A stretch of 55,238 nucleotides of DNA from Candidatus Phocaeicola faecipullorum (GTDB lineage Bacteria > Bacteroidota > Bacteroidia > Bacteroidales > Bacteroidaceae), in the NCBI GenBank assembly GCA_018884025.1, contig JAHLFB010000188.1, forward strand, positions 1 to 55,238. Reading direction: 5' to 3'. The translations under genes and the position numbers were made by a program. Of the stretch, positions 470 to 14,944 are shown one piece after another (position 1 is the first letter of the stretch; every line of letters begins with the position of its first letter). Below the pieces are notes generated by a model. It saw only the letters and a program-made list of their open reading frames with translations, was not told the origin of the DNA and did not search any database.

Positions 470-1051
470 TTAGTCAAGAGAATCAGGCTTCTCATCATCA
501 AAACTTTCATCTTCTGCTTTTGACGATTTTTTAAGCATATCTGTTATCTCTGTCAAAAATGCTATATCCCTAAAATAATAGTTTGGATCATTAATTAACT
601 TATCTTCAATATAATCAAATCCATAGTTAGCATACTCTTCCATTTTTTCCATCATTTTATCAACAGCTGCTTTTAAAGTAACTTCACCTTTATCTAAAGC
701 AATGAAATCAATATCCGTTTTTGCTATTAATGCAGCAAAAATATAACGACGTAAATTCCCATATGAAGTTCTGCCAATGCGATTCTCTATGTTTCCCCAA
801 TATTGTATAGCCTGACCAAATACTTTTTTCTTATCTCTATCTTCAACCAATGGTTTTGTTCTATTATGATATAATCCAATAAAGAATGCTATAATAAAAA
901 TCTCATAACCAGCTCCAAAAATCTTCCCACGAGCTTCCAAGAAGCTACTTACACCTTTTCCATAATCGCAGAATACATCCACAACAGTAGATTGATAACG
1001 TTTCTCCCATGAAGGATTACGTTTTGCCCATGCTTCATATAATGATTCCAT
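470..1051 (-). CDS. Uncharacterised 193-aa protein, last gene of Dnd-like operon (DndE position)
   Basis: I do not recognise this family. The protein is 193 aa, begins MESLYEAWAKRNPSW, has a hydrophobic patch with FIIAFFIGLYHNRTKPL near residues 50-70, and ends in an acidic, charged tail. No signal peptide or clear membrane span is seen. It begins 2 bases after the stop of the SMC-like gene, so it is almost certainly co-translated with it. In canonical dnd loci the gene after dndD is dndE, a DNA-binding protein of roughly 110-130 aa. The position suggests a functional analogue, but I see no convincing DndE sequence match, and this protein is longer. A small subunit of the SMC complex or of the modification complex is an inference from context. 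Confidence 0.6.
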   Translation of the reverse strand: MESLYEAWAKRNPSWEKRYQSTVVDVFCDYGKGVSSFLEARGKIFGAGYEIFIIAFFIGLYHNRTKPLVEDRDKKKVFGQAIQYWGNIENRIGRTSYGNLRRYIFAALIAKTDIDFIALDKGEVTLKAAVDKMMEKMEEYANYGFDYIEDKLINDPNYYFRDIAFLTEITDMLKKSSKAEDESFDDEKPDSLD

Positions 1052-1053
1052 TC

Positions 1054-3222
1054 CTATTTGATTTTATTGATTATTGTACGTATAGTTGCCATATTTGTTT
1101 TATCAAAGCCATCAGCCTTATTTATACGATAGACAGAACATGTTAATTTATTTACATCCTCTTCCCTTACTTTACCACGTGTTATGTAGTCCTTGGTTAC
1201 AATTATGCACTGTTTGTCTATCTTATCTATTACATTATAGAATTCACTTTCCTTTGAATCACCGAATGACGATGTTGCAGCATCAAAAAATAAAGGATAA
1301 TCTTCATCTCTCTTTTCTTGAGTAAAATCCGAAATAGCAAAAAGAACAGAAATATACATCACTGTTTTTTGAGAGCCTGAAGGATTGACTATTTCCGTAC
1401 CATTAGAACTATAAAGATGAATTTCAGTTGAATCATTAGCAGTTTGCACCAAACGCACATTACCATGAAAATCATTTGCACTAAGTCTGCCCAAATATTC
1501 ATTAGCTCTTTTTTCCAACTCTGTAAGGAATCTGCGCAAATTATCTTTCTGAGCACGAGAAAAAGCATCATTGATTTCCTCTAAAACTTTATGAACTTTT
1601 TTCAGAATTTTAACCTGGGAATTTGCCGAATTTAGATTGTTCATCTGATCCTTTAGCTCATCCATTTTTGATATATTGTTCTTTAACTCATATTCTAACT
1701 CATTCAGTCTAATAGATGCTCGTTCTTTCTGCTCATACCATCCCCTAATATCATTAAACTGACTTTCAAGAAGGCTCTCAGACACATTACCAGCCTGAAT
1801 TAAAATACGAGCTTTTTCATCTTGTAAATCCTGAATTTCTTCTTCAATGTTTTTCAACTCATTTTTACGTATAGCAACAAGACTAAGCCAATCGTTGATG
1901 TCTCTTGAAAGACCCAATATCTTCGATTCTTCAGAACCACCAAGTGAAATACTAAGTGAATGTAATTCTGTGATATAATCGTTTTTAAATAAGGTTTCCT
2001 CCTCTATCGATTTCATCTCTGCTTCACGTTTACATTTAGCCTCAACATGCGCACGATATTCTTCAAGACGATGAACCATAAATTGATAAGCCTCAGACCC
2101 TTCAGGAGCTTCACGACCACATACTTTACATATATGATCATTAATCATATCCTCCATTGTTTCTTGGTCAGGAAGATACCAAGGTAATTCTGTTGCACCA
2201 TTAGATAGTGCCCCCTGAATCTCTTTAATAGTTTCTAACTTAGCTTTTGCTGCTGCTTGCTGTTTGTCAAAGTTTTTCTCCTGAATACGTTTTTCTTTAC
2301 TAAGTGAGGCACATTTCTGTTTAAATTCTGTCAGAACATCCCCAAATGGTGCTAATATCCAGTATTGATCAAGAAGACAATGATTATAATCCTTCTTCTT
2401 TATTACCGCCATAAGTTGAGTCTTCTTTGAAGACTTAGCTTTAAGTCGTTCTTGGATGTCACGATACTTCTCAGAAGTTTCTTGGTTTTGTTCTAGTTTA
2501 TTAAGATTAGACGAAAAAGTAGCTATTGCATCTTTTTTATCCTTAATATCCTCTTTGTTTTGTTGGATCTCGCTACTTAAACGTGTCATTTGCAATTCAA
2601 TAGCTTTTGTTTCTTTTGAAATCTTGTCATCAGACTTCATTTCCTGTAACAAAGCCTTATTAGCTTTTTGTTCAAACGATTCTGTATTTGAGACAAGTCC
2701 ATCAAACTTATGAATATCAGAAAATTTATCAACCAACATCTTCAATGAAGCAGCATTGTCGAATACACTCAAATCTGATTCACCTTTGAACATACTAAAT
2801 CTACGGATAAAAGAATCATAGCATCGTGTTATCAACTGTTTACCATCCACAGACTCACGTTCAATCCCATTGGATTCATATCCACGATAAGAAGCATTAC
2901 TTATACTATAAGTGTCATATCCTGTCCTAGTAATAGAAAAGGATTTTTCAACCATCTTCTCACCATCGTGGTCAAAAGTCATCGCCACATAAACCTCGTC
3001 CCGTTCACCAATTTCCAGTTTAGATTTTCTCATTTCTGATACATTAGAAATGTTAGCACGTTCCAATGTTGTATCAAACAGCCACTCTAAAGCCTCAAAA
3101 AATGTGGTTTTTCCATCCCCATTATCTCCTAGAATTAGTGTGAGCCCATCTGAAAATTCAAAATGGTTATTCTCACCATAATAACTTCTAAAGTTTTTGA
3201 TATCTATTGATTTGATTCTCAT
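1054..3222 (-). CDS. SMC/Rad50-like ATPase with CxxC hook, DndD-like
   Basis: A 722-aa ABC-type SMC protein. The N-terminus has a Walker A GDNGDGKTT at residues 32-40. Long charged coiled-coil segments follow, broken near the middle by CKVC (365-368), a zinc-hook-like motif. The C-terminus has a signature-like NPSGSQK (613-619) and a Walker B region PLFFDAATSS (about 643-652). The Walker B aspartate is followed by alanine, not the usual glutamate. DndD of phosphorothioation systems is an ATPase of this architecture, and the neighbouring DndC- and DndB-like genes support that reading. The start codon overlaps the stop of the upstream 76-aa gene (ATGA). A generic RecN/Rad50-like repair ATPase is less likely in this operon. 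The family match to DndD itself was judged by motif and context, not by alignment. Confidence 0.75.
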   Translation of the reverse strand: MRIKSIDIKNFRSYYGENNHFEFSDGLTLILGDNGDGKTTFFEALEWLFDTTLERANISNVSEMRKSKLEIGERDEVYVAMTFDHDGEKMVEKSFSITRTGYDTYSISNASYRGYESNGIERESVDGKQLITRCYDSFIRRFSMFKGESDLSVFDNAASLKMLVDKFSDIHKFDGLVSNTESFEQKANKALLQEMKSDDKISKETKAIELQMTRLSSEIQQNKEDIKDKKDAIATFSSNLNKLEQNQETSEKYRDIQERLKAKSSKKTQLMAVIKKKDYNHCLLDQYWILAPFGDVLTEFKQKCASLSKEKRIQEKNFDKQQAAAKAKLETIKEIQGALSNGATELPWYLPDQETMEDMINDHICKVCGREAPEGSEAYQFMVHRLEEYRAHVEAKCKREAEMKSIEEETLFKNDYITELHSLSISLGGSEESKILGLSRDINDWLSLVAIRKNELKNIEEEIQDLQDEKARILIQAGNVSESLLESQFNDIRGWYEQKERASIRLNELEYELKNNISKMDELKDQMNNLNSANSQVKILKKVHKVLEEINDAFSRAQKDNLRRFLTELEKRANEYLGRLSANDFHGNVRLVQTANDSTEIHLYSSNGTEIVNPSGSQKTVMYISVLFAISDFTQEKRDEDYPLFFDAATSSFGDSKESEFYNVIDKIDKQCIIVTKDYITRGKVREEDVNKLTCSVYRINKADGFDKTNMATIRTIINKIK

Positions 3223-3449
3223 ACATTACGTTTTAGATAATCGTTAATCTCTTTCCAAAGTTCTTTTTCAGTAGCCCCCTCACTTGTACGACTAATTATT
3301 TGTGCTACTGTACTGATAACATAATTTTCAGAATCTATTGCTTGGTATATATTTCCAATATCTTCCGCTGTGTAACCACCAAACTCCATAAGCTTTTCAT
3401 CTAATAAAACAGCATGGAGTATCTTTTCATTATTCATTACTGATGCCAT
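3219..3449 (-). CDS. Small 76-aa uncharacterised protein between helicase and SMC genes
   Basis: This 76-residue protein (start MASVMNNEKILHAVLL) has no cysteines, signal peptide or membrane segment, and looks helical throughout. It sits 4 bases after the helicase stop and overlaps the SMC start by 4 bases, so it is locked into the operon by translational coupling. That coupling is the main reason to accept it as real. I do not recognise the family. A small partner that binds the SMC ATPase or helicase is an inference. An internal ATG at residue 5 could also be the start. Confidence 0.6.
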   Translation of the reverse strand: MASVMNNEKILHAVLLDEKLMEFGGYTAEDIGNIYQAIDSENYVISTVAQIISRTSEGATEKELWKEINDYLKRNV

Positions 3450-3453
3450 TTTT

Positions 3454-5739
3454 TTAAAATATTGACAGGTTATAATAATTTGTTATTTCTTCTAATTCTG
3501 TATATGCATATGATGAATTTTCGGATAGCCCCGCAAAATCCCTTACCCTTTGCAATTCTCCTTTAAGCAAATTACGTTCCATGTTATAGTTTTCCTCGAT
3601 TGAATTTAGTTCAGGTACAACCACTAAATCATGAATAATTGCAATATGCTTGTCCGGATGTTTTCTCAATATACGCCCACGCCGCTGAATAAATTGCCTT
3701 GGATTACCTGTACTAGCACAGAATATTGCAAGTTCACTTCTTGGCACATCGACACCTTCATCCAAACATTTCATTGATGTAAGCACCTCAATATCACCGT
3801 TAGAAAATTTTCTCAGCACTTCATCTCTATTCTTAATGCCTGAAATAAATTTCTTTACTGTAGTTATTGGACTAATTTCTTGTATAATCTGTGTATATCT
3901 ATCAATCAATTTATCCTCATCTATATCATCTGTTGGATTGTCAGTAATAGCATATTGAGTAACATTATCAGGTTGTGTACCTTCAGGAACATAAACAAGC
4001 GTATATTTAAGATTTCCATATTCCTCGTATCGTTGTCTTACGATGTTACAGAATACAGCTTCTTTGTTCTTTGCTTTATGAATAATTCTCTTACGTTTAA
4101 GTAATAAACGCATAAGAATATCATCTGCACCTGAGAAGGAGCCCTCTTCTAAATTATAAAATTTGACAAGCTGCGAAGAAATTTTTTTATATTCACTCAT
4201 TTCCTCTTCATTTAATCGTACTATATGCGGAAAATATTTATACCGACAAAGAAATCCATTATCTATAGCGTCTTTCATTGAATACTCAAATGTATATTTA
4301 CCATCACATCCAAAAAATTGCATAACAGCTTTATTACCATTATCATCAAATTGACGCTCAGGTGTAGCAGACAAACCTATACGACGTAGAATCTTCACTC
4401 TATCCAACTTAGACATAATATTAGGAGCCCCTATATTGTGAGCTTCATCTGCGATTAGCAACATTTGTCGTAGTGTTTTCCTACTTAAAGACATAAGATA
4501 TTTAAACGTAGACTCTCTTGAAAAGGACGCATAGGTTGCAATAATGATAAATGAAGATGGTAATTCATCACTTTGTGCTAAACTTTCTTTTAGTTTTATA
4601 TCATCTATTTCTGACTTCCATCCTTGATTTTTTGAACTAACCTTAATTATGTTACTAAAATTAAAGCGTTTACATTCATCTTCCCATTGTTCTACAAGCG
4701 TAATCGTAGGTACAAGTATCAATGCTTGATAGAATTTGAATTTGTTGTATATCTGAAGCAAACAGTTTAAAGAAGTCAATGTCTTTCCTGTACCTGTAGC
4801 CATTACAAACAACCCCTTTTGCGAAATTTTCCAATTATTAAAAGCCTCTTTTTGATATGGTCTAGGTTCAGGATATGGGAATTTTGGAGTAAGTGATATT
4901 ACCTGTTCATCTATATAGCTATTCTTTTCTTTATTTAAGGAATCTATAATTAATGAAATTCTGGTTTTAGCACGTTTTAAGATTCTACTGATGGAATCAG
5001 AAGAACTATTTTCAATTCTATGATGAAGGATACTTTGTTCATCTTCCAAAAGTTCTTTAATATCCTTATACTTATATGTATTCGTGATATGAGTAATAAT
5101 TTGGTCAGCTTTTAGATAATTGACAGTATTATCAGCACCTGAGAAAGTTCGATTAAAATCATTTACAATATCATTTATCCGTTCCTTGTCTCTTTCTCCA
5201 TCCCAATCACAAAAGGCATTAATACTCTCAATATTATCTATAAGAGCCATCCTTGAAAAATTACATGAACCATCAAACGCTACTTTATTAATACCATCAG
5301 AAAATACGCCACACTTAGAGTGCGCTACACCATTCCCATTCTTTGGTGTAATTATCTTTATCTCAATACGTTCGTTACGAATGAGCCAAGACAAACATTC
5401 AAAAAAGTGCTTATCTCGTTTTGAAAGAGTATAAGATATGCGGTCTATTGCGTTAAGATCAAAATACGGCGTGATGATATCTGATTCTCCAACCACAATA
5501 GCATTACGATCTTCCTCAGATAGGACATCATTAATAATCATCCTCATTCTACCACCACCATAAAGAAATGCTGCAAAACCATCAGCTAACACATTTATAG
5601 CTGAAGAAGAAAAAAATCCAAGTTTTATGTCGAATGTAGTAGAATTACATAATGCTTCGGAGAAGAAACCTAGCGGTTCCCACTCTGTTCGAGACATAAA
5701 GCGTCTACTTATGGGCCATATTACATCAGTTTTCAGCAT
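3454..5739 (-). CDS. PLD-nuclease-like/DEAD helicase fusion, Dnd-associated restriction protein
   Basis: A 761-aa superfamily 2 helicase with an N-terminal phospholipase D-like domain. The PLD motif is visible as H140-x-K142 followed by G157-S158-C-N160. Helicase motifs are MATGTGKT (313-320), DEAH (431-434), SATP (457-460) and QRRGR (685-689). In NCBI naming, helicases of this kind next to dnd genes are called DNA phosphorothioation system restriction enzymes; I recall this from family knowledge and could not search. A single HKD motif usually needs dimerisation for nuclease activity. The start ATG lies inside the last codons of the DGQHR gene (14-nt overlap). The likely role is translocation and cleavage of unmodified invading DNA. 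A modification-side role cannot be excluded. Confidence 0.8.
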   Translation of the reverse strand: MLKTDVIWPISRRFMSRTEWEPLGFFSEALCNSTTFDIKLGFFSSSAINVLADGFAAFLYGGGRMRMIINDVLSEEDRNAIVVGESDIITPYFDLNAIDRISYTLSKRDKHFFECLSWLIRNERIEIKIITPKNGNGVAHSKCGVFSDGINKVAFDGSCNFSRMALIDNIESINAFCDWDGERDKERINDIVNDFNRTFSGADNTVNYLKADQIITHITNTYKYKDIKELLEDEQSILHHRIENSSSDSISRILKRAKTRISLIIDSLNKEKNSYIDEQVISLTPKFPYPEPRPYQKEAFNNWKISQKGLFVMATGTGKTLTSLNCLLQIYNKFKFYQALILVPTITLVEQWEDECKRFNFSNIIKVSSKNQGWKSEIDDIKLKESLAQSDELPSSFIIIATYASFSRESTFKYLMSLSRKTLRQMLLIADEAHNIGAPNIMSKLDRVKILRRIGLSATPERQFDDNGNKAVMQFFGCDGKYTFEYSMKDAIDNGFLCRYKYFPHIVRLNEEEMSEYKKISSQLVKFYNLEEGSFSGADDILMRLLLKRKRIIHKAKNKEAVFCNIVRQRYEEYGNLKYTLVYVPEGTQPDNVTQYAITDNPTDDIDEDKLIDRYTQIIQEISPITTVKKFISGIKNRDEVLRKFSNGDIEVLTSMKCLDEGVDVPRSELAIFCASTGNPRQFIQRRGRILRKHPDKHIAIIHDLVVVPELNSIEENYNMERNLLKGELQRVRDFAGLSENSSYAYTELEEITNYYNLSIF

Positions 5740-6991
5740 TTAAACTTAATTTATTAATTTGATTCATAGCTTCTTCTTCTGTATCTAAATCAAAAATTGC
5801 TGCATATTTAACTCTCATTTTTTTCATATCAGATTCAGAAAGGATTGTATTATCATATAGATATAGAAGAAGATATCTCACTAATGCTTGGTTTCTCATA
5901 ACCATTTTTTGTGTCATTGGATTCCACAAAATTTTATTCCAAGGACTATGAGATACTATACGTTCCATATGTTCAAAACGACTTAATATTTCAACAAACT
6001 CCGTACCCTTTTCTAATCTTATCTTGGACACAGCTTCTACAAAAGGCAGCAATCCTATAGGCCTAAAAAAGATATTTCCTCCTGATTCAGGCGAACGCAT
6101 TTCTGCAGCAGCAGTAGAAGGAGATGTACTATTGATAAACTCATTAAATTCAGGAAATACATTCCGCATCAAATTCCAAAACTCAATAAGAAAACACTCA
6201 AATGAATCAAGGACATCATCATTTGGTCTGAATTTTAGATATTCGCTCAGTTGAGTTTGTGTATATTTTCTACCATCTCTAATTGAAATAAATGTATTAA
6301 ATAAAGTTATATGACATGCATACAATGTCATTAGAGAAGTAAAAGCCATTCTATCATTAGTAGGTATTGCTTTATTATTGGTAGCCTTAATCCTATTACC
6401 TGTAAACAAAGGATAATTCTCTAGCATATTCCTAGTAACAATTGCAACGGTATCATCCTCATCTAATGCAATTATATCACCCAATCTTACAGGTTTCACA
6501 TACCTATTTAAAGTAGAAAAAATACGTCTGGAATGTTCTCTTCCTTCTGGCGTGTTTTTATGACCAATTAAAACAACGCTAATAGTTTCATCATATATTT
6601 CAGGTTTACATTCTAGGGCTTTCTTTATACCTTCTACACGATGTTGTCCATCAACTGGAAAAATTTTTTCCTTACCATTTAGTTCTAATAAACCTACATT
6701 GGGATAAGTAATACCCTCTATCTCGTATCTGATTTCTCTCCATTTTGGGTCTCCATCATAAACTGCTAAAACAAGACTATCAAAAAAATGATCTTCTCGT
6801 TTTATTATATAATCTTTAATTTTCATATAATTATCAGACAACGAACGTTGTATCTGTTCCTTTATAGAATTAGCAGTATGTAATTCATCATCAACTCTAC
6901 TTACCATTGTTGCTATCTGAGAAAAAGTCAAATTCGCTATGTAATAAATGGTATTACCAATTCGTCCTTTTATTGCTGGTATATTAATCAT
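5726..6991 (-). CDS. DGQHR-domain protein, DndB-like
   Basis: This 421-aa protein contains the diagnostic DGQHR pentapeptide at residues 114-118, counting from the ATG at 6991. DGQHR proteins include DndB, a transcriptional regulator and accessory factor of phosphorothioation systems, and ParB/Srx-like folds. The track-long frame starts four codons earlier at 7003. The ATG at 6991 is preferred because it follows the upstream stop by one base. The 3' end overlaps the helicase start by 14 nt. In dnd systems DndB represses the operon and modulates modification, so autoregulation of this locus is possible, but no operator was identified. Confidence 0.8.
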   Translation of the reverse strand: MINIPAIKGRIGNTIYYIANLTFSQIATMVSRVDDELHTANSIKEQIQRSLSDNYMKIKDYIIKREDHFFDSLVLAVYDGDPKWREIRYEIEGITYPNVGLLELNGKEKIFPVDGQHRVEGIKKALECKPEIYDETISVVLIGHKNTPEGREHSRRIFSTLNRYVKPVRLGDIIALDEDDTVAIVTRNMLENYPLFTGNRIKATNNKAIPTNDRMAFTSLMTLYACHITLFNTFISIRDGRKYTQTQLSEYLKFRPNDDVLDSFECFLIEFWNLMRNVFPEFNEFINSTSPSTAAAEMRSPESGGNIFFRPIGLLPFVEAVSKIRLEKGTEFVEILSRFEHMERIVSHSPWNKILWNPMTQKMVMRNQALVRYLLLYLYDNTILSESDMKKMRVKYAAIFDLDTEEEAMNQINKLSLNAEN

Positions 6992-6992
6992 A

Positions 6993-7514
6993 TTAAAATG
7001 CATTTATAATAGGTTGAGGTTCTAATTTATCAGGTATTTCTTCATTAAAATCTGGCTTAATAGCCCGAATTAACATTACTTCATTTTTATCAATCATTTC
7101 ATTGTTCGTATCGGGATAATATCTGTAATATACATATTGCCCCCAACGTTTAAACATATTTTTAATTTTTGGCCTTTCATCAGTAAAATATTCTTTAGCA
7201 CGTTTATTAATATTCTGTGAATTACTAAAATGACATCTCCCGATATAAACAATATGCTTTTCAAAAAAAGGCAATGTAATTCCTTTAATAAAAAATAAAT
7301 ATATACCACCTGTATCAGATGGAATATTCTTAATTTCATCTGAAATTCCATCATTAGTAGAATTTAAGTATTTTATTTCTGGCTGCCAATTATTTTCACA
7401 AAGGATTGGATTATCACTATCTGGACAATTTTCAATCCATCTTCGAGGATTCAAATTGAAAGATATTTCAAAGTTACGATCCTCATATTCTATATCAAAA
7501 GCATTTCTACGCAT
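6993..7514 (-). CDS. GIY-YIG family nuclease embedded in Dnd-like operon
   Basis: A 173-aa protein from the ATG at 7514 (a longer frame begins at 7541 inside the previous gene). It carries the GIY half-motif at residues 70-72 and YIG at 90-92, separated by 17 residues. Further on are RAKEYF (105-110), E145 in a NEVMLIRA context, and N157. These are the positions expected for the catalytic arginine/lysine, metal-binding glutamate and asparagine of GIY-YIG endonucleases, so the site looks intact. About 65 residues precede the nuclease domain. It starts 5 bases after the sulfurtransferase stop and is followed one base later by the DGQHR gene. A restriction effector is the simplest reading. A nicking role in modification is also possible. 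Confidence 0.8.
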   Translation of the reverse strand: MRRNAFDIEYEDRNFEISFNLNPRRWIENCPDSDNPILCENNWQPEIKYLNSTNDGISDEIKNIPSDTGGIYLFFIKGITLPFFEKHIVYIGRCHFSNSQNINKRAKEYFTDERPKIKNMFKRWGQYVYYRYYPDTNNEMIDKNEVMLIRAIKPDFNEEIPDKLEPQPIINAF

Positions 7515-7519
7515 ATCTT

Positions 7520-8620
7520 TTATATAAAACAATTTGCACAAAAATTATCTTCGTCAATATCACCAATATTATCAACTAAACGACATGATCCAGCTTGACG
7601 CTTTGCTTCCTGTTTTTTAATTGCATCCAACTTAATTTGACGAATACGTTCAGGCTTGATCAAATCTGCCAAACTTTCATTTTGATTCCAAGTATAACCA
7701 CCTTTTTCAAAATCCATCGCTTTCTGATATAAGTCTGGATGCTGCTCATAAAGCCATATCCATTCTATTTTTTGTTGAAAAAAACAGAAATAACAACCCG
7801 AACGACTACGATTATAAGTTCCAACTTTACCATCGACCTCAAATTTTATTGGTTTATAGTAGTCTGGTACACCTACACCACTCTCCTCAAGTATTCGGAA
7901 TATATCATCCCTAACAAGAACATCATCATTATCAACCAATGGGAACTCATCAAGCATACCTACTGGATAATCCGTTGTCTTTAGAAATTTGAATACTGCT
8001 TTATTAAATAGTTTTGTATCAAAATTTAATAAAGCATTTACCTTTTTACTGTAATAGAAATCTTTGGTGAGTGGTTTCTCTATAATCTCCTTTACTTCTG
8101 TCAAAATATCACCGCCACACAATGAAGAATATATTTCTAAAAGTTGAGCAATATTATTATTACTCAATACTTTATTTATAACATCAACACTCCATATATT
8201 TTTACGAAAAGGGAAAATAGCCTGAATATTTGGCTTAGTGGAAACATACCCTTCACGATCCTCATCCCCACGAATACCAACATAGGAAATTGTAGGTGAA
8301 TCTCCAACAAATTTCTCCATTTCAGCTAACTTCATTTTCTGAGTACACCAACGAGCTTGTGGGGATGGTAAATAATTACCTGATGCCTTCAAAAAATGTT
8401 CAAATGGTGTTGGCTCCGGACTCCCTGCCGCAGCTCTCAACATTGTTATACCTCCAAGATATGTATCAAGACGATTTATCAAAAGCTCTGTCTCTGCAAG
8501 TTCACAACCTGTGTCGGTGTTATAATACTCCAATTTCATTTGTGGATATTTATTTTTGAGGTATATGGCTAATGCTGCACTATCCTTACCTCCAGAAATA
8601 CCCAATATCTGTCGTACCAT
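7520..8620 (-). CDS. PP-loop/PAPS-reductase family sulfurtransferase, DndC-like
   Basis: A 366-aa protein from the ATG at 8620. The longer frame starting at 8662 would overlap the ATPase gene by 40 nt, whereas the chosen ATG puts SGGKDS at residues 9-14 and lies 2 bases after the upstream stop. SGGKDS is the PP-loop that adenylates substrates in ATP-sulfurylase, PAPS-reductase and DndC proteins. Cysteines at 92 (ARWC), 276 and 279 (CYFC) could hold the iron-sulfur cluster known in DndC. A C-terminal FCANC (C361, C364) adds another pair. DndC activates and transfers sulfur to the DNA backbone. The context with DGQHR and SMC proteins favours DNA over small-molecule sulfuration. Confidence 0.85.
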   Translation of the reverse strand: MVRQILGISGGKDSAALAIYLKNKYPQMKLEYYNTDTGCELAETELLINRLDTYLGGITMLRAAAGSPEPTPFEHFLKASGNYLPSPQARWCTQKMKLAEMEKFVGDSPTISYVGIRGDEDREGYVSTKPNIQAIFPFRKNIWSVDVINKVLSNNNIAQLLEIYSSLCGGDILTEVKEIIEKPLTKDFYYSKKVNALLNFDTKLFNKAVFKFLKTTDYPVGMLDEFPLVDNDDVLVRDDIFRILEESGVGVPDYYKPIKFEVDGKVGTYNRSRSGCYFCFFQQKIEWIWLYEQHPDLYQKAMDFEKGGYTWNQNESLADLIKPERIRQIKLDAIKKQEAKRQAGSCRLVDNIGDIDEDNFCANCFI

Positions 8621-8622
8621 AT

Positions 8623-11600
8623 TTATTGTAATCTTTCGTTTAACATTTTCAGCAATATACAAACATCTAATTCTTCGTTGCCAGACAAAAGTGTATGTAT
8701 CCTATTTTCTATTTTTTTAGCTTCAGCAATTTTAACTTTAGGAAGTCGATAAGTTCTATTTGGCTTAAAATCACCTTTACTAGTTGCCAATTCAAAGTTA
8801 AATGCGATCTCGTCTGTTTCATAATTAATTTCATTAAAAGCAGTGTATCGCTCTAATTCCCCAAATAAATGTGTAAGATTCGACAAGAACAAAGCTTCTT
8901 CCTTATCTTCTATCGTTTCAATCTTTCGATCAAATACCACTAGGCCAATCTTTTCATAAAATTCACGTTTATTATCAGATGGAGCCAAGATCCTATCCAA
9001 AAAAGATTTAGATTTAGCAGTCAGTAAACCTTTATTTATGTTTGAATAACGCTTAACCAATATCTCTTTATAATCTAAATAATTATGAGGCAATCCTAAA
9101 TATCCTACCACTGTTTCTTCAATACGATCAATAAACAGGTCATAGCAAACTACCAGTTCGTGAACGGCAGTTTTTATAAGTTGCAAATACTGAGCAATAA
9201 AATCTTCATTATGAAGATCGTTGTAACCTAAAGCAGCTGGAATATCTTCTAAGAATGCTTTACAAGGATCTTTTGCTGTTGCTAGTATATCTCTGAATTT
9301 AGCAGTAGCATCGTAATCAAATTTGCGAGTTGTTTGGGCATATTTATTCAAGCCTCTATAAAAATTAAAGAACGGACGAATAGTATCCATAAGGGATTTT
9401 GAGGTAATAGTTTCTCCACGTTCTTTATTCAAAAACTCTCTATATTTATTAAATAATTCCAGTTTTATTCCACTTACATCAAAAGCTTTTATTGTAAAAT
9501 CATTTAAATGTTTTTGCAGCAACTCAAAAAGTTCCTTATTAATATTCAAAACAAATGTTTCACCATTATACAGCGCATATTCCTGTTGCTTAATAAACAA
9601 GAATATAGGTAACCAAAAATCGATAACACCTTGTTTCAATTTATAGGGACGCTTTTTTAACATTTTCACCAAATCAGACAGTTTCATGGCTTTTTCTGTA
9701 CTTTTTGCCAGAAAATCAGAACAAACTGTCCATAAAGATTGAAGTTCCGGAGTAATTGGTTCACCTAAAATCCATAAGCCATCCTCATTTTGTCGATGAA
9801 TCCCTGAACTCTTTAGCAATGTATTATATATAGTACGTTCAGGAGGATATTGAGTAGAAGAAAATCCAAAATTTTCTTCTTGCCAATGCCCAATCATAGC
9901 ATCTAACAAATTCACTCTTGCAGAAGAAATAGCAGAACTAATTTTTTGCTTATTAAATAACTCATTTCTAATAATAGGTGTCTCATTATATACATAATCA
10001 CATACTGTCGATAGCAATTTATTAAAATCTTTTCGACTCTTTATAACCTGCTGTTTTCCATTGAAAAACCATTTAACTTGTCCATCTACCATTTCAACGC
10101 AATTATTGATAACTTCATTTAGTAATTGCGTTTCAAAAGCCTTTTGCTTAAGTATTTCTACTTTTGCAATACGATCTTCCAAAACCACATTATCAAGGAG
10201 ATATTGCAATTTCTTTATTTCATATAAATGTTTAACAATTTTTTCTGTATCATCAAAGTAAGCATAAACTATAGCTTTACCTGAAGTTCCAGATAACTCT
10301 ATCATGCGTTCTTTTACATCCTCCAACGGAAATATCAAATTTATAAAACCATCCTCGTCACCTGTTGGTTCTACATCGTACGGTTCATTAGATACAACAA
10401 ACTGAAAATATCGAGGAGTACCAGTTTTATAATATGAAGCAGACGCTACCACAACAGACTTCTTCACATATGGTGCAATTTCTGTTGCAACTAACTTAGG
10501 TACAGGTACAATAGTGGCTGCTTTATATAATTCATCCTCAATGTTTATATCTGTACCCTCAAATAAAATAAACTGAGATTTATATGCAGCGAAGCGAATA
10601 ATTTTATTTGATGTCAATTTTTCAATAATAGTTTTAGGACTTTTTATCCCCAAAGCCTTCGATGCGTAAGTTTCCAAAAAAGCAACGTCCACTATTACAC
10701 CACTATAAAACAAATTTAGCAGGCCAATAGTCTTAACAATTTTGAGTGCATCTTCAATATTGTTTTTGCTTATAACTCCACTTTCGACTCGCTCTATAGC
10801 AACACGAATTGCACGCCAATTTGTAGAGTCAATATTTGATTCTGCTAAAACTGTGTAAAAATTATATATGATATAATCATACACGACAGCCAAATTATAA
10901 GTAGTAGTTTCATTAGGAATAAAACTATTTATAGAATCAGATGTAGTATCATGTAAGAAAGAAAACAATGTTCTCTCATTTTGACCATACCTTTGAATTG
11001 CTAATGTCAAGCACGAAGCTGATACAGCATCCAATGGATAAAGCATCTTCGAAGTTCTTACAGTTAAAGATTCAGATATAATTTTGTTTTTCTTTGCTAA
11101 TGAGAATACCTCAAGGAAATTCTCTTTAGCATCATCCGTCATTAATTTTGATTTGGTTAAACTTTCTGCAGCCAAATATAAAAGTTGTTCTACGGGCTCA
11201 GCAAAAACTAATTCTTTAAAACGACCTTTTACCTTTAGCCACTCATTTCTCTGGGTCTCTGTAAGCTTATAAGCATAGGCTCCAAAATTCTGGTGAAGAG
11301 TGGCAATAAGTATTACATTTCTTGATGAAACATTCACAAATTCAGCAAATGTTTGTAAAAAATACAACTCTTTTTCAGGGTTATTGTTAGCTGCATGCTC
11401 AAGTATCTTTCCAAATTCATCAATAAAAATGAATAAAAATTTGTTTTGAGACTTGAGGTTTATCAAAAGCTTTGTCAATACATTAAAAATATTCTTGCTA
11501 TCCCCTGAAGAAATTATTGACAACTCATTAGCCAGCAATGTTGATAGTGGAGTATAATCCCCTACGATATTCATAAATTCAAAACCATCAGCACCGGCAA

Positions 11601-11832
11601 ACACTTGTCTTTCTGACACCAAATTTGATTTATTATTGAGTAGATCTTGCTCTAATGCCATTAAGAAACTAGACTTTCCAGTCCCGTATGTTCCAATCAT
11701 TAAAAAAGAATGAATTCCTGACTGGAAACTATCTACTATATTCCCATATACCTTTTGAGCATTCGGCGTTACAATGTAATTGAAGTTATCACTAACACCT
11801 TGGCTTATGTTTGTGGATAAATTAAAATTCAT
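8623..11832 (-). CDS. Large P-loop ATPase, BrxC/PglY-like
   Basis: A 1069-aa protein with Walker A GTYGTGKSS at residues 47-55 and Walker B FIFIDEF at about 134-140, followed by a sensor-like strand ILIATLHQNF. The rest is long, mostly helical and without further recognised motifs. The GxYGTGKS P-loop and size resemble BrxC/PglY ATPases of BREX and the large ATPases that accompany DUF4007 proteins in defence islands. It overlaps the DUF4007 gene by 11 nt and is followed 2 bases later by the DndC-like gene. A large AAA ATPase next to a sulfurtransferase suggests a loader or DNA-sensing engine for modification, but that role is inferred. No methyltransferase or PglZ phosphatase is present, so this is not a standard BREX locus. 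Confidence 0.75.
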   Translation of the reverse strand: MNFNLSTNISQGVSDNFNYIVTPNAQKVYGNIVDSFQSGIHSFLMIGTYGTGKSSFLMALEQDLLNNKSNLVSERQVFAGADGFEFMNIVGDYTPLSTLLANELSIISSGDSKNIFNVLTKLLINLKSQNKFLFIFIDEFGKILEHAANNNPEKELYFLQTFAEFVNVSSRNVILIATLHQNFGAYAYKLTETQRNEWLKVKGRFKELVFAEPVEQLLYLAAESLTKSKLMTDDAKENFLEVFSLAKKNKIISESLTVRTSKMLYPLDAVSASCLTLAIQRYGQNERTLFSFLHDTTSDSINSFIPNETTTYNLAVVYDYIIYNFYTVLAESNIDSTNWRAIRVAIERVESGVISKNNIEDALKIVKTIGLLNLFYSGVIVDVAFLETYASKALGIKSPKTIIEKLTSNKIIRFAAYKSQFILFEGTDINIEDELYKAATIVPVPKLVATEIAPYVKKSVVVASASYYKTGTPRYFQFVVSNEPYDVEPTGDEDGFINLIFPLEDVKERMIELSGTSGKAIVYAYFDDTEKIVKHLYEIKKLQYLLDNVVLEDRIAKVEILKQKAFETQLLNEVINNCVEMVDGQVKWFFNGKQQVIKSRKDFNKLLSTVCDYVYNETPIIRNELFNKQKISSAISSARVNLLDAMIGHWQEENFGFSSTQYPPERTIYNTLLKSSGIHRQNEDGLWILGEPITPELQSLWTVCSDFLAKSTEKAMKLSDLVKMLKKRPYKLKQGVIDFWLPIFLFIKQQEYALYNGETFVLNINKELFELLQKHLNDFTIKAFDVSGIKLELFNKYREFLNKERGETITSKSLMDTIRPFFNFYRGLNKYAQTTRKFDYDATAKFRDILATAKDPCKAFLEDIPAALGYNDLHNEDFIAQYLQLIKTAVHELVVCYDLFIDRIEETVVGYLGLPHNYLDYKEILVKRYSNINKGLLTAKSKSFLDRILAPSDNKREFYEKIGLVVFDRKIETIEDKEEALFLSNLTHLFGELERYTAFNEINYETDEIAFNFELATSKGDFKPNRTYRLPKVKIAEAKKIENRIHTLLSGNEELDVCILLKMLNERLQ

Positions 11833-12667
11833 CGTTATTGTAATATCTATTTAGAACTTCTATTGTGTTTATTTTTTTTAAAAATTGTACATTTCTAATA
11901 CCGCTATTATCCGTATAGCTAATTTCTTCCGGGTACTGTTCACTCAATGAGCGAACAATCATCAAGAAAAAAGATATAGGAATACAGAATGTCAATGATA
12001 ATACCTGTAACTTATCAAAAGAAACGGTTTTATCCTCCCCAGCAATATGAACCAATGCAAATAAAACGACCAAAGGATTAACTTGTTCCATAGAGATTTC
12101 GTTAAACGAATATTTTCCTTCATTCTCACGAAGAAGGCCTAATTCTAACAATAGACTTGTATATTCCTCATTAGTTTTTGGATTTGTCGGTGAAAGATAA
12201 GTTTGTAGAAGAACTCTGATATCTTTTTTGACAGTATTTTCATTAAATGTGTTTTTCTGATCAGGAACATTACACTTTCTCTTAATAAAAGCAAGAATTT
12301 GATCCTTATCAAACTCCTTCTTTTCACGTTGCAAATCAACGAATACCAGACGATAAATGCTTGAAAATTCAGTTATTACTAATAAATAGTGAAGAATCCA
12401 TAATGTAAAATTATCCTCTGCATATGGATCTTTACCACCATTATCATCAAAAAGATAACTGGCTATTTTTGTTACTTCATCATCACTCAAAAGCCCAAAT
12501 GCCCTAAGCCAAAATCGGATTGATTGAACCATATTCTTACCAACACCAAGTTTAACGACTGCATCAGGATCTGTAAATTTATTATGACCAACCAAATAAT
12601 CATATCCTTTCTTTAACCACATTGATTTACAAGGGAATGATTCATGACCAGAAAAACAATACCTCAT
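11822..12667 (-). CDS. DUF4007 family protein, first gene of Dnd-like operon
   Basis: A 281-aa protein that opens with MRYCFSGHESFPCKSMWLKK. The GHESFPCKSMWLKKGYD stretch is, from memory, the hallmark N-terminus of DUF4007 proteins, which are encoded beside DndC-like sulfurtransferases and large ATPases in defence islands. No catalytic motif or membrane segment is seen. Its function is unknown, and a DNA-binding or adaptor role is only a guess. It overlaps the ATPase gene by 11 nt. Upstream there are about 160 AT-rich bases to the next gene, where I see no TAnnTTTG element on the minus strand. Confidence 0.8.
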   Translation of the reverse strand: MRYCFSGHESFPCKSMWLKKGYDYLVGHNKFTDPDAVVKLGVGKNMVQSIRFWLRAFGLLSDDEVTKIASYLFDDNGGKDPYAEDNFTLWILHYLLVITEFSSIYRLVFVDLQREKKEFDKDQILAFIKRKCNVPDQKNTFNENTVKKDIRVLLQTYLSPTNPKTNEEYTSLLLELGLLRENEGKYSFNEISMEQVNPLVVLFALVHIAGEDKTVSFDKLQVLSLTFCIPISFFLMIVRSLSEQYPEEISYTDNSGIRNVQFLKKINTIEVLNRYYNNDEF

Positions 12668-12831: not shown

Positions 12832-13605
12832 CTACTTCACCAACAAATCCTGAATAAAAACAATCTTGTCTTCCCAGCCATTGGCAAATATATTCGGAGA
12901 ATGTGTAGTAAGTATGAGCTGACAATTCTCATTAAGAGAACGTATCAGACTTATAAGACTGTCCTGCCAACTGATATGAAGAGATATCTCAGGTTCGTCC
13001 ATTAACAGGACATTCGGTTTTTCTTCTTGTAAAAAAACTGTTGTGAGTATCAGTAACAGCTGTTTCTCTCCAGAAGAAAGCTGATCTATCTGCAATATAT
13101 CATCGCTTCCTTCGATAGAGAATGCCAAGGTATTGTTCTTCGGATTAATAATGATTTTCTTTCCGGTTTCACTAAACATTGAATTTACCAAAGCAAAGAA
13201 TTTGTCGATACGCTGCTGTATTTCTACAGCCTTATCAGGAAAATTCAACATTTTCATTCTATAATCGAAAAACGACGTTCCTTCGCCATTTTGATTAATA
13301 ACATGCTTCAATTCCTGAAGCAACATACTTTCTGTCCTTTTCTTCGAATTGGCAGGAATATCAAACGAGCGTATATATGTAACGGGAATACTTATATCTG
13401 TACATTTTACAGCTTCTGCAGGAAGTTTCTTTGACTTTGATGGCTGATAATAATCTGATATAAGATTCAGCAAAGTTGTCTTGCCGGAACCGTTGATGCC
13501 TACAATTATATTAACATCCTCATTTATATTTTTCCAGTCAAAATCTAACCTTCCCCACAATCGGGTTACTTTTACATGTGATATATATTGTGAATTTTCT
13601 TTCAT
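12832..13605 (-). CDS. AAA/ABC-type ATP-binding protein (AAA_21-like)
   Basis: A 257-aa single-domain ATPase from the ATG at 13605. It has Walker A GINGSGKTT at residues 36-44, the ABC signature LSSGEKQ, Walker B VLLMDEPEISLH and an H-loop in LTTHSP. This is the pattern of the AAA_21/OLD-like group of stand-alone ATPases often found with defence nucleases. No TOPRIM or nuclease domain follows, so it lacks the effector part of OLD proteins. The frame can be extended to a GTG at 13623, but a promoter-like TAGTTTTG (13630-13623) overlaps that GTG, which favours the internal ATG. It is separated from the nine-gene operon by about 164 bases and may be an independent gene. Confidence 0.75.
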   Translation of the reverse strand: MKENSQYISHVKVTRLWGRLDFDWKNINEDVNIIVGINGSGKTTLLNLISDYYQPSKSKKLPAEAVKCTDISIPVTYIRSFDIPANSKKRTESMLLQELKHVINQNGEGTSFFDYRMKMLNFPDKAVEIQQRIDKFFALVNSMFSETGKKIIINPKNNTLAFSIEGSDDILQIDQLSSGEKQLLLILTTVFLQEEKPNVLLMDEPEISLHISWQDSLISLIRSLNENCQLILTTHSPNIFANGWEDKIVFIQDLLVK

Positions 13606-13622
13606 GCGATATTTTTTAGTCA

Positions 13623-13630
13623 CAAAACTA
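13623..13630 (-). promoter_or_regulatory. Bacteroidetes-type -7 element before AAA ATPase gene
   Basis: Minus-strand TAGTTTTG matches TAnnTTTG and lies 18 bases before the ATG at 13605. It overlaps the alternative GTG start at 13623, so it helps to decide the start. No convincing -33 TTTG was seen. Confidence 0.45.
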
Positions 13631-13707: not shown

Positions 13708-14052
13708 CTACACAGTACGACACAAGGATTTCAGCAGCTCCCTATCATCTGATATTATTTTGTCTATTTCTATATGAGTACATGCCTCGTCTTTCAGCAA
13801 CCTTACGGTAGAGGTGTTCTCGTCATCCGAAACATCCCAGGTAAGAAGTACGGTATGTATTTTCAGGGCCTTGAGTTTCTTTACAAGCATCTCGTGGTCG
13901 GCACCACCGGTTATAAGAACTACGAAATCAAACTTTCTTATTGTTGCAAGTTCGTAAGCTTCGAGGGCAAACCATACATCTACACCTTTCTCAATCACAG
14001 TGACATTACTGCCTTTTTGTACTTTCCTAAGATGCTTGTAGTGGATAACTTC
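13708..14052 (-). pseudogene. NYN-domain (LabA/DUF88-like) protein remnant
   Basis: The frame reads IEKGVDVWFALEAYELA, then a hydrophobic strand FDFVVLITGGADHEMLVKKLK, ending in ELLKSLCRTV and a stop at 13708. KGVDV followed by an acidic strand and a GG-D segment is typical of the C-terminal half of NYN (PIN-like) RNase domains. In frame upstream it stays open to 14052 (about EVIHYKHLRKVQKGSN) and is then closed by TAG at 14055-14053. The N-terminal half with the first catalytic aspartates is missing, so this is best read as a truncated remnant. A GTG at 13998 could in principle start a 96-aa product. It is next to the inverted repeat at 14085, which may mark the deletion or insertion boundary. 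Confidence 0.6.
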
Positions 14053-14199: not shown

Positions 14200-14625
14200 C
14201 TAGGAAGAGGTGAGCACTTTCAGCTCCAATGTTTTTGCGCACCTCTCCCCTCCGTAAAATTCATCGAGGACTTCGCCGAATATACTGCCGGGAAGCACGA
14301 TATCAAACAGTGTCATGCTTGATCTGAGTTTAAGTGCGTCAATGCCACCCATTATCCGTTCGATATCCTCTCCATTGTGCTGAAGAAGGGCTTCGGTTAT
14401 CTCAAACAGCCGTTTACGGAGAAGTTCGTTCTGAAGATAGTCTTTGGCTTCCTGGAGCGAGGAAATGCCATAGTATTGGGCGTTATAGCTGAAGCCGAGA
14501 CCTTTTATCTGGGGAAAGATGTACCATATCCAGTGGGTAACCTTACGCCCGTTTCTGATTTCCGCCAGAGCGGTATCATAACTGTCTGCCTGGGCATCGA
14601 TGAATCTTTGCAAAGTGTTATTCAT
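14200..14625 (-). CDS. DUF1810 family protein
   Basis: A 141-aa protein from the ATG at 14625, starting MNNTLQRFIDAQ. The open frame extends another 55 codons upstream to 14790, but that part is low-quality, hydrophobic sequence without a family match, so the internal ATG is chosen. Conserved DUF1810 features include the N-terminal RFIDAQ and the THWIWYIFPQ and GLG segments, followed by a helical domain. The function of the family is unknown; it occurs in many bacteria. The gene is isolated, bracketed by inverted repeats, and has remnants of mobile or toxin-like genes on both sides, so it may have been acquired as a unit. Confidence 0.85.
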   Translation of the reverse strand: MNNTLQRFIDAQADSYDTALAEIRNGRKVTHWIWYIFPQIKGLGFSYNAQYYGISSLQEAKDYLQNELLRKRLFEITEALLQHNGEDIERIMGGIDALKLRSSMTLFDIVLPGSIFGEVLDEFYGGERCAKTLELKVLTSS

Positions 14626-14944
14626 AATGGTAATGTTTTTATATATCAATCTTAATGAAGCTATGAAAATTAAATAAAAAACTGTATAATTGCAATAATA
14701 GTCGAAAATACCAAAACATTTCATACGGGCAAAACTTTCTTTGGGTATTTTTATATTTATCTTTTTTATCAGCTGCCTTTCAATATACATATAGTTAACA
14801 AATTATACACTTGACTTTTACTGTATAAAATAAAGAAAATCATATTCAAGAATGCTCAAATAAATATAAGTGCTCATTTTCAAGTCACAACAAAGCGGTA
14901 TATATAACTGATATTCAACACATACCAGAAAAACACGCAAAAAA

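Follow-up and report, generated by a model that had tools for sequence, protein, structure and literature searches.

A nine-gene locus of Candidatus Phocaeicola faecipullorum combines an Ssp-type core, predicted to place sulfur in the DNA backbone as phosphorothioate (PT), with two further gene sets: a PbeABCD module, and a pair formed by a small GIY-YIG nuclease and a protein carrying a DGQHR motif. The locus lies at positions 470–12667 of a 55,238-nucleotide stretch of contig JAHLFB010000188.1 (assembly GCA_018884025.1), referred to in its entirety as the window. The locus probably serves PT-based defence through two effectors, and the GIY-YIG/DGQHR pair would be the equivalent of SspE, PT-gated but made of two subunits; this pair and the exchangeable slot that it occupies are the part that looks new. 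Nine minus-strand open reading frames (ORFs), all open, fill the interval and encode, in the 5' to 3' order of the operon, sspB, sspC, sspD, the GIY-YIG gene, the DGQHR gene, pbeA, an easily overlooked protein of 76 amino acids (aa), pbeC and a 193-aa protein. Neighbouring ORFs either overlap, by 40 bases or less, or are no more than 4 bases apart. The TTG starts listed for sspD and the GIY-YIG gene are, from the translations, probably too far upstream; with the likelier ATG starts, at 8620 and 7514 respectively, the longer overlaps vanish. E-values of the locus proteins against curated families reach ~0 and are not a matter of chance. Where Pfam or NCBIfam has a model, its result fits that of PADLOC. 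The original prediction for this stretch had described a compact nine-gene operon in this same order, and both the operon and the motifs that it named (SGGKDS, the cysteine pairs, DGQHR, the CKVC of a CxxC ATPase, HSK/DEAH, GTYGTGKS, and GIY with YIG) are real.

Judged by family scans, the first three genes encode homologues of SspB, SspC and SspD and, as one operon, constitute an Ssp core that would make the PT modification. The sspB gene (11822–12667, 281 aa) encodes a DUF4007 protein, the predicted DNA-binding/nickase subunit, with matches to PF13182 (2.5e-72), to the PADLOC SspB model (8e-91) and, at 3.9e-12, to the solved structure PDB 6juf, ‘SspB protein’. SspC (8623–11832, 1069 aa) is an AAA+ ATPase whose Walker motifs include GTYGTGKS, and it scores E ~0 against the PADLOC SspC model versus 3.3e-71 against BrxC. 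SspD (7520–8662) is a PP-loop/PAPS-reductase-like putative sulfurtransferase with a PADLOC SspD match of 3.8e-83 versus 1e-4 for DndC; SGGKDS and the cysteines are invariant in an alignment of 12 SspD sequences, the window protein having two CxxC pairs, CYFC and CANC. SspBCD is reported to make single-stranded PT, the formation of which needs nicking by SspB (PMC8092258). These three proteins had been read as a BREX-like DUF4007 protein, a BREX-like ATPase and a DndC-like PP-loop protein, labels that are replaced here by those of the Ssp families; the proposal of a DNA sulfur modification-restriction locus thus agrees with the family scans, whereas that of Dnd joined to BREX does not.

The last four genes are assigned, from their matches, motifs and positions, to a PbeABCD module. 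PbeA (3454–5739, 761 aa) is an HKD/PLD nuclease fused to an SF2 helicase; it matches PADLOC PDLC02706 at E ~0 (1089 bits) and TIGR04095, dnd_restrict_1, at 5.9e-118, which is under that model's cut-off, and it carries HSK, ATGTGKT, DEAH and QRRGRILR. The pbeB-like ORF (3219–3449) has an iterated hidden Markov model (HMM) that is matched by 40 ORFs in 93 stretches, duplicates included, and homologues likewise sit between pbeA and pbeC. PbeC (1054–3222, 722 aa), a CxC-type ABC ATPase, has the Walker A sequence GDNGDGKT and a CKVC hook at residue 365; the PADLOC PbeC model matches at 9.3e-21 and is outscored by one LmuB model (5.6e-26), which matches best over residues 1–95. The pbeD-like protein (470–1051, 193 aa) has no Pfam or NCBIfam match, and PADLOC gives only PprPIWI at 0.0079; the HMM of its family matches, at 6.8e-4, a Ruegeria ORF annotated ‘DNA phosphorothioation-associated protein 4’. 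The two small proteins left unrecognised by the original prediction are therefore taken as pbeB-like and pbeD-like members of a module already described in print (PMC6459918, PMC10853773). PbeABCD was presented as a partner of DndCDEA in archaea, where it blocks virus replication in a PT-dependent way (PMC6459918), and was later reinterpreted as a CxC ABC ATPase-DndE system (PMC10853773).

The joining of Ssp and Pbe genes is recurrent. The neighbourhoods of 80 SspD loci were read, these being the best 80 of at least 398 relatives and mostly from Bacteroidota; in four of them (L047, L079, L106, L111) the sequence stops within 1 kb of sspD, and as these are kept in the denominators, counts of absent modules are upper bounds. 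PbeA and PbeC occur together in 39 of the 80 (33 tandem, six convergent), with an uninterrupted pbeA-pbeB-pbeC-pbeD in 30. PbeA stands alone in seven loci, three of them cut by contig ends and four beside a MORC-like and PLD-type set; PbeC stands alone in one, and 33 have neither. Among 295 Bacteroidales genomes, SspD is found in 13 and PbeA in ten (both at E<=1e-40), and six genomes have both where 0.44 would be expected (Fisher p 3.8e-7); when the genome of the window is excluded, five have both where 0.37 would be expected (p 5.2e-6). All five PbeA matches above 1000 bits in that sample lie on contigs with sspBCD. Hyunsoonleella flava (L077) has the gene order of the window and, in addition, sspA.

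Over all loci, SspC and PbeA distances are correlated (rho 0.667, n=41, 0/999 permutations as high). Among loci near the window (SspD identity at least 62%) the values are -0.007 for SspC-PbeA (n=27, 494/999), -0.061 for SspC-PbeC (n=25) and 0.065 for SspB-PbeD (n=25), and those within modules stay at 0.892 for SspC-SspB and 0.52 for PbeA-PbeC, the narrower range of distances in this set lowering any correlation. Since core-Pbe correlations are near zero and within-module ones persist, the two modules seem to reshuffle among these loci, and the notion of SspBCD and PbeABCD as one co-evolving unit was rejected. At the sspD/pbeA junction of L044-L123, the operon order is kept without correlation of distances, as if modules recombine there.

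No paper describing the SspBCD-PbeABCD pairing was found in the open-access literature searched, in which the passages that name both sspBCD and pbeABCD treat them only apart and those on PbeA and SspC do not describe their pairing; priority is not certain. One paper counts pbeA-D among PT-gene strains (PMC7464106; in Mycobacterium and Vibrio about 10%) but pools dnd with ssp, and Ssp-Pbe cases may therefore lie there unnamed. The suggestion that the system is undescribed thus fails for its parts, which belong to the named Ssp and PbeABCD systems, and holds for the nine-gene whole, which was found described nowhere in the open-access literature searched.

Between core and Pbe module stand the two genes of the pair. 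The GIY-YIG gene (6993–7541, 173–182 aa depending on its start) has no PADLOC match at E up to 0.1. In its family, at E up to 1, 5/12 members match PF01541 (best 7e-06) and 6/12 match GIY_YIG_2 (best 0.0056). The signature of a GIY-YIG nuclease comprises GIY and YIG, an arginine, a catalytic glutamate and an asparagine; G79, Y81, Y99, G101, R114 and E154 are invariant in 15/15 members, and N166 is present in 14/15. The DGQHR protein (5726–7003, 425 aa) has its motif at residue 118 and matches TIGR03187 at 7.6e-31, over the cut-off, whereas against the DndB equivalog model it reaches 79.4 bits with a cut-off of 328. On a tree with 11 DndB-type rows, the GIY-linked DGQHR proteins form a clade apart from DndB, the branch having support of 100/100 without one very long row and 75/68 with it.

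The pairing of the two genes is conserved. A GIY-YIG gene is adjacent in 15/15 loci of the GIY-clade DGQHR proteins, a set gathered partly from loci already known to carry that gene (E-value limits 1e-10 and 1e-20), and in ten DndB-type control stretches no GIY-YIG protein is matched, even with E allowed to reach 1. The two also diverge in step (Mantel rho 0.714, 0/4999 permutations as high). Eleven of the 15 distinct pair loci carry Ssp genes and four (L131, L134, L155, L156) carry Dnd genes. In L131 the pair is upstream of dndBCDE, with its own DndB present; in L129 it lies beside an FtsK-type set and SspD; in L130 it directly follows an sspABCD set; and L133 has the genes of the window, but Pbe and the pair are oriented convergently with respect to sspBCD. 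The partner type, Ssp or Dnd, changes at least three times on the DGQHR tree, the deep branches of which are weak.

Matches to the DGQHR profile are rare, being found in 5/395 genomes sampled from the phylum (a count that includes the window's genome and one DndB), in 6/395 sampled from the class (again with the window's genome) and in 1/197 of another class, a case already known. Among plasmids, matches covering at least 80% of the window DGQHR protein occur in six records and those of a Roseobacter DGQHR protein in five, three of them alike; the same five records carry a GIY-YIG protein, and the sixth is annotated dndB and is 23.6% identical. A viral origin of the cassette was considered and set aside: a scan of viral contigs with the DGQHR alignment, phage records being outside it, gave 49 matching stretches and no relative.

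The place of the pair directly after sspD is an exchangeable slot. Its occupants were classed by BLAST clustering, and from each cluster one member or a few were tested against family libraries. In 30 of the 80 SspD loci the slot is empty, with no same-strand gene between sspD and the PbeA, SspA, opposite-strand gene or contig end that comes next (L079 and L111, which stop early, being counted here). It holds DUF262 with a protein kinase in 12 loci, GHKL ATPase sets in seven, SspE-cluster proteins in six (five alone, one with an AAA-PIN trio; the tested member, L050, matches PADLOC SspE at 3e-266), an AAA-PIN trio in five, GIY-YIG/DGQHR in four (one of them, L106, ending after the GIY-YIG gene), DUF262 with Sir2 in three, a MORC-like ATPase with a different GIY-YIG protein in two, and other content in 11. 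For the kinase cluster the member tested, from L062, is encoded behind pbeD and so outside the slot, and the PIN, Sir2 and MORC labels are readings of the sequence, the MORC one with a weak MzaB match. On a quick SspB+SspD tree of 73 rows with both proteins, slot type requires 36 changes against a mean of 42.7 for shuffled labels (0/200 shuffles as low) and a minimum of nine. Because slot type fits the core tree only faintly, the cassettes appear from this comparison to have been exchanged many times.

Other occupants of the slot deserve mention. A different GIY-YIG protein (~150 aa; Pfam 0.0038 for one member) stands beside a MORC-like GHKL ATPase after sspD in three distinct loci (L036/L081, L037, L101), which makes this set another possible two-gene effector. 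Loci with the DUF262 and protein-kinase cluster gene include L051, L052, L064, L082, L114 and L121, and both the DUF262-kinase and the DUF262-Sir2 gene pairs may be PT-dependent too. The trio of L042, L046, L065, L072, L087, L096 and L110 consists of an uncharacterized 549-aa protein, a BrxC/D- and TniB-like AAA ATPase and a PIN-like protein; the L042 members have no PADLOC match. A GHKL-type ATPase of ~820 aa, recognised by eye, recurs near PT loci on either strand (L033, L034/L107, L099 and others); its cluster covers 15 loci, one a duplicate, and by eye also L132 and L154.

From these genes we infer PT modification, PT sensing, complex formation and phage defence, along the following lines. 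SspBCD, together with a housekeeping cysteine desulfurase, would sulfurate the host's DNA backbone at certain sites; SufS is suggested as donor because no sspA is adjacent. The mark would then be read by two effector modules. The CxC ATPase and its DndE-like partner may scan DNA and bring the nuclease-helicase PbeA to unmarked invader DNA, the replication of which would be blocked. The DGQHR protein, for its part, would bind DNA and nucleotide, sense PT and either license or restrain the GIY-YIG nuclease, and the pair would nick or cut DNA without the mark. It would thus be a two-gene counterpart of SspE and DndI, in which a DGQQR sensor and an HNH nuclease are in one chain. The finding of the pair beside both Ssp and Dnd modification genes is as expected of a PT-dependent effector. 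The service of two effectors by one PT core has experimental precedent in SspE with SspFGH (PMC8092258), and in both SspE and DndI, which respond to PT, a DGQQR NTPase is coupled to a nickase (PMC11662687).

A wider reading, held with middling confidence, is that the pair represents a new and mobile class of PT-gated effectors moving between Ssp and Dnd cores as one of several cartridges of the slot (the others being SspE, DUF262 with kinase or Sir2, GHKL and AAA-PIN), often followed by pbeABCD, and that Bacteroidota run two stacked PT-dependent effectors off one sulfur mark.

Compared with SspABCD-SspE, the locus has the same SspB/SspC/SspD core, behind which both encode a DGQ[HQ]R protein and a nuclease, but SspE is a DUF262-HNH protein in one chain where the locus has two genes, and PbeABCD is added here. 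The order PbeA, PbeB, PbeC, PbeD is shared with the DndCDEA-PbeABCD systems of archaea and CxC ATPase systems, in which Pbe is paired with DndCDEA rather than SspBCD. SspABCD-SspFGH and its combinations with SspE likewise place more than one effector on an Ssp core, although those effectors are others than the ones found here; no FtsK/HerA-type DndH or SspH is among the listed PADLOC, Pfam and NCBIfam matches of the ten proteins scanned. IscS-DndBCDE-DndI also links a DGQxR NTPase to a nickase, PT-regulated in print, but DndI is a single, Dnd-linked DUF262-HNH chain.

Several points weigh against the two-effector scheme and the likeness of the pair to SspE. Without PT, SspE and PbeABCD are harmless, and DndI, DndFGH and SspFGH are damaging; since published effectors differ in this respect, the direction of gating here, SspE-like activation or DndI-like release, is not predictable from sequence. 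No sspA adjoins the locus, and a distant one could be missed in an assembly that is 86% complete; of eight aminotransferase-V matches in the assembly, the three strongest are two SufS-like proteins and one SerC, and the other five are weak. A cysteine-desulfurase cluster gene is found directly before pbeA in 12/80 SspD loci, and its one tested member, from L077, is IscS-like. The window's own GIY-YIG protein scores weakly against the Pfam GIY-YIG models (0.046 and 0.028), below cut-off. The 193-aa protein is taken as PbeD, a DndE cognate, mainly by position. Cleavage of virus DNA by PbeABCD was not seen by the authors of PMC6459918, which speaks against a cutting role of PbeA, although PMC10853773 argues for one. 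Homology of the DGQHR protein to SspE was considered and rejected: against the SspE profile its family matches only over ten residues around DGQ[HQ]R, with a probability of 3%. The analogy to SspE is drawn from position, from that motif and from PMC11662687, which places DUF262, SspE and DndB in a ParB-like superfamily.

Lacking an SspE match past the motif, and homologous to DndB along its length (hhalign 99.7%, with DGQHR and LN motifs in common), the DGQHR protein has as its main rival role that of a regulator. DndB is reported to be a transcriptional regulator. The DGQHR protein would in that case be a DndB-like regulator of transcription or of PT density, and the GIY-YIG protein an unrelated passenger or a backup suicide nuclease. 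Of the four pair-bearing Dnd loci, three lack a separate DndB within the sequence read, and Rakesh et al. (PMC10853773) list GIY-YIG (URI) nucleases at Dnd locus boundaries as standalone backup effectors, in passages that mention no pairing with DGQHR. Unlike what would be expected of such a regulator, the DGQHR protein has a constant GIY-YIG neighbour that diverges in step with it, falls in a separate clade far under the DndB equivalog cut-off, coexists with an annotated dndB in Rhizobium NXC14 and occupies with its partner the slot that SspE fills in other loci. The role of regulator is thus a serious but unlikely alternative to that of PT-gated effector.

That the locus is a decaying island without present function is improbable. 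A relative from the window's own family (L153) has the same cassette order, but with sspC split and pbeA truncated, and the island looks to be decaying there; the window locus itself is near a contig end and low in GC. On the other hand, its nine frames are open, the motifs are intact where tested, and the sspBCD-pbeABCD block is present in many genomes. Compared with L153, the ratio of non-synonymous to synonymous substitution rates (dN/dS) is 0.04–0.08 for SspB, SspD, GIY-YIG, DGQHR and the first 333 codons of PbeA, ratios that are rough at dS 0.75–1.7 and that show purifying selection on these five stretches.

Still more improbable is that the pair belongs to the modification machinery, for instance by nicking DNA and hydrolysing NTP so as to open up the sites where sulfur is inserted. 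It adjoins sspD in most Ssp loci that have it, and the reported need for SspB nicking (PMC8092258) would give such an activity a place; the GIY-YIG gene, however, follows sspD in so few of the sampled loci, with SspE, DUF262 sets, other sets or nothing elsewhere, that a slot of such exchangeable content is unlikely to hold a core modification part. The least plausible reading, a BREX type 4-like or Dnd-BREX hybrid locus, was rejected: the DUF4007 protein, BrxC-like ATPase and PAPS-reductase of BREX type 4 share ancestry with SspB, SspC and SspD (PMC12839542), but for all three the Ssp models give much higher scores than those of BREX, and no PglZ, BrxX or BrxL is among the PADLOC matches listed (the best 25 for each of ten proteins, the rest of the window being outside the scan).

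If the pair is indeed a PT-gated effector, it would bring a further nuclease class to PT defence and, with just two proteins, allow the reading of PT and the cutting of DNA to be studied separately. In a published survey, SspE and SspFGH were both missing from 2,211 of 2,678 sspBCD loci, which led its authors to ask about further restriction partners (PMC8092258). The Bacteroidota loci offer answers in the frequent PbeA and PbeC, found in about half of the loci sampled, and in a slot with six recurrent sets besides SspE, GIY-YIG/DGQHR included.

With regard to its setting, the locus has a GC content of 32.5% versus 42.2% for the window from 16001 to its end, in an assembly of 3.82 Mb. Ten flank proteins that were tested look mostly chromosomal (a proton pyrophosphatase, an Rnf/Nuo-like subunit, a fructose bisphosphatase, a seryl-tRNA synthetase and others), and since the GC is low and the flank mostly ordinary chromosome, the locus looks acquired. 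The window has no Rfam match at gathering scores and no tRNA by a tRNA scan. Just upstream of sspB on the same strand, at 12832–13623, is a 263-aa ATPase that matches a PADLOC AriA model (PARIS) at 3.7e-113. Further minus-strand ORFs adjoining the locus are a short NYN-domain ORF, maybe a fragment, at 13708–13998 (8.3e-6) and a DUF1810 protein at 14200–14790 (8.8e-54). At the other end, an ORF at 3–197, also on the minus strand, runs off the contig start and resembles by eye the N-terminus of a transposase, which hints at a mobile boundary.

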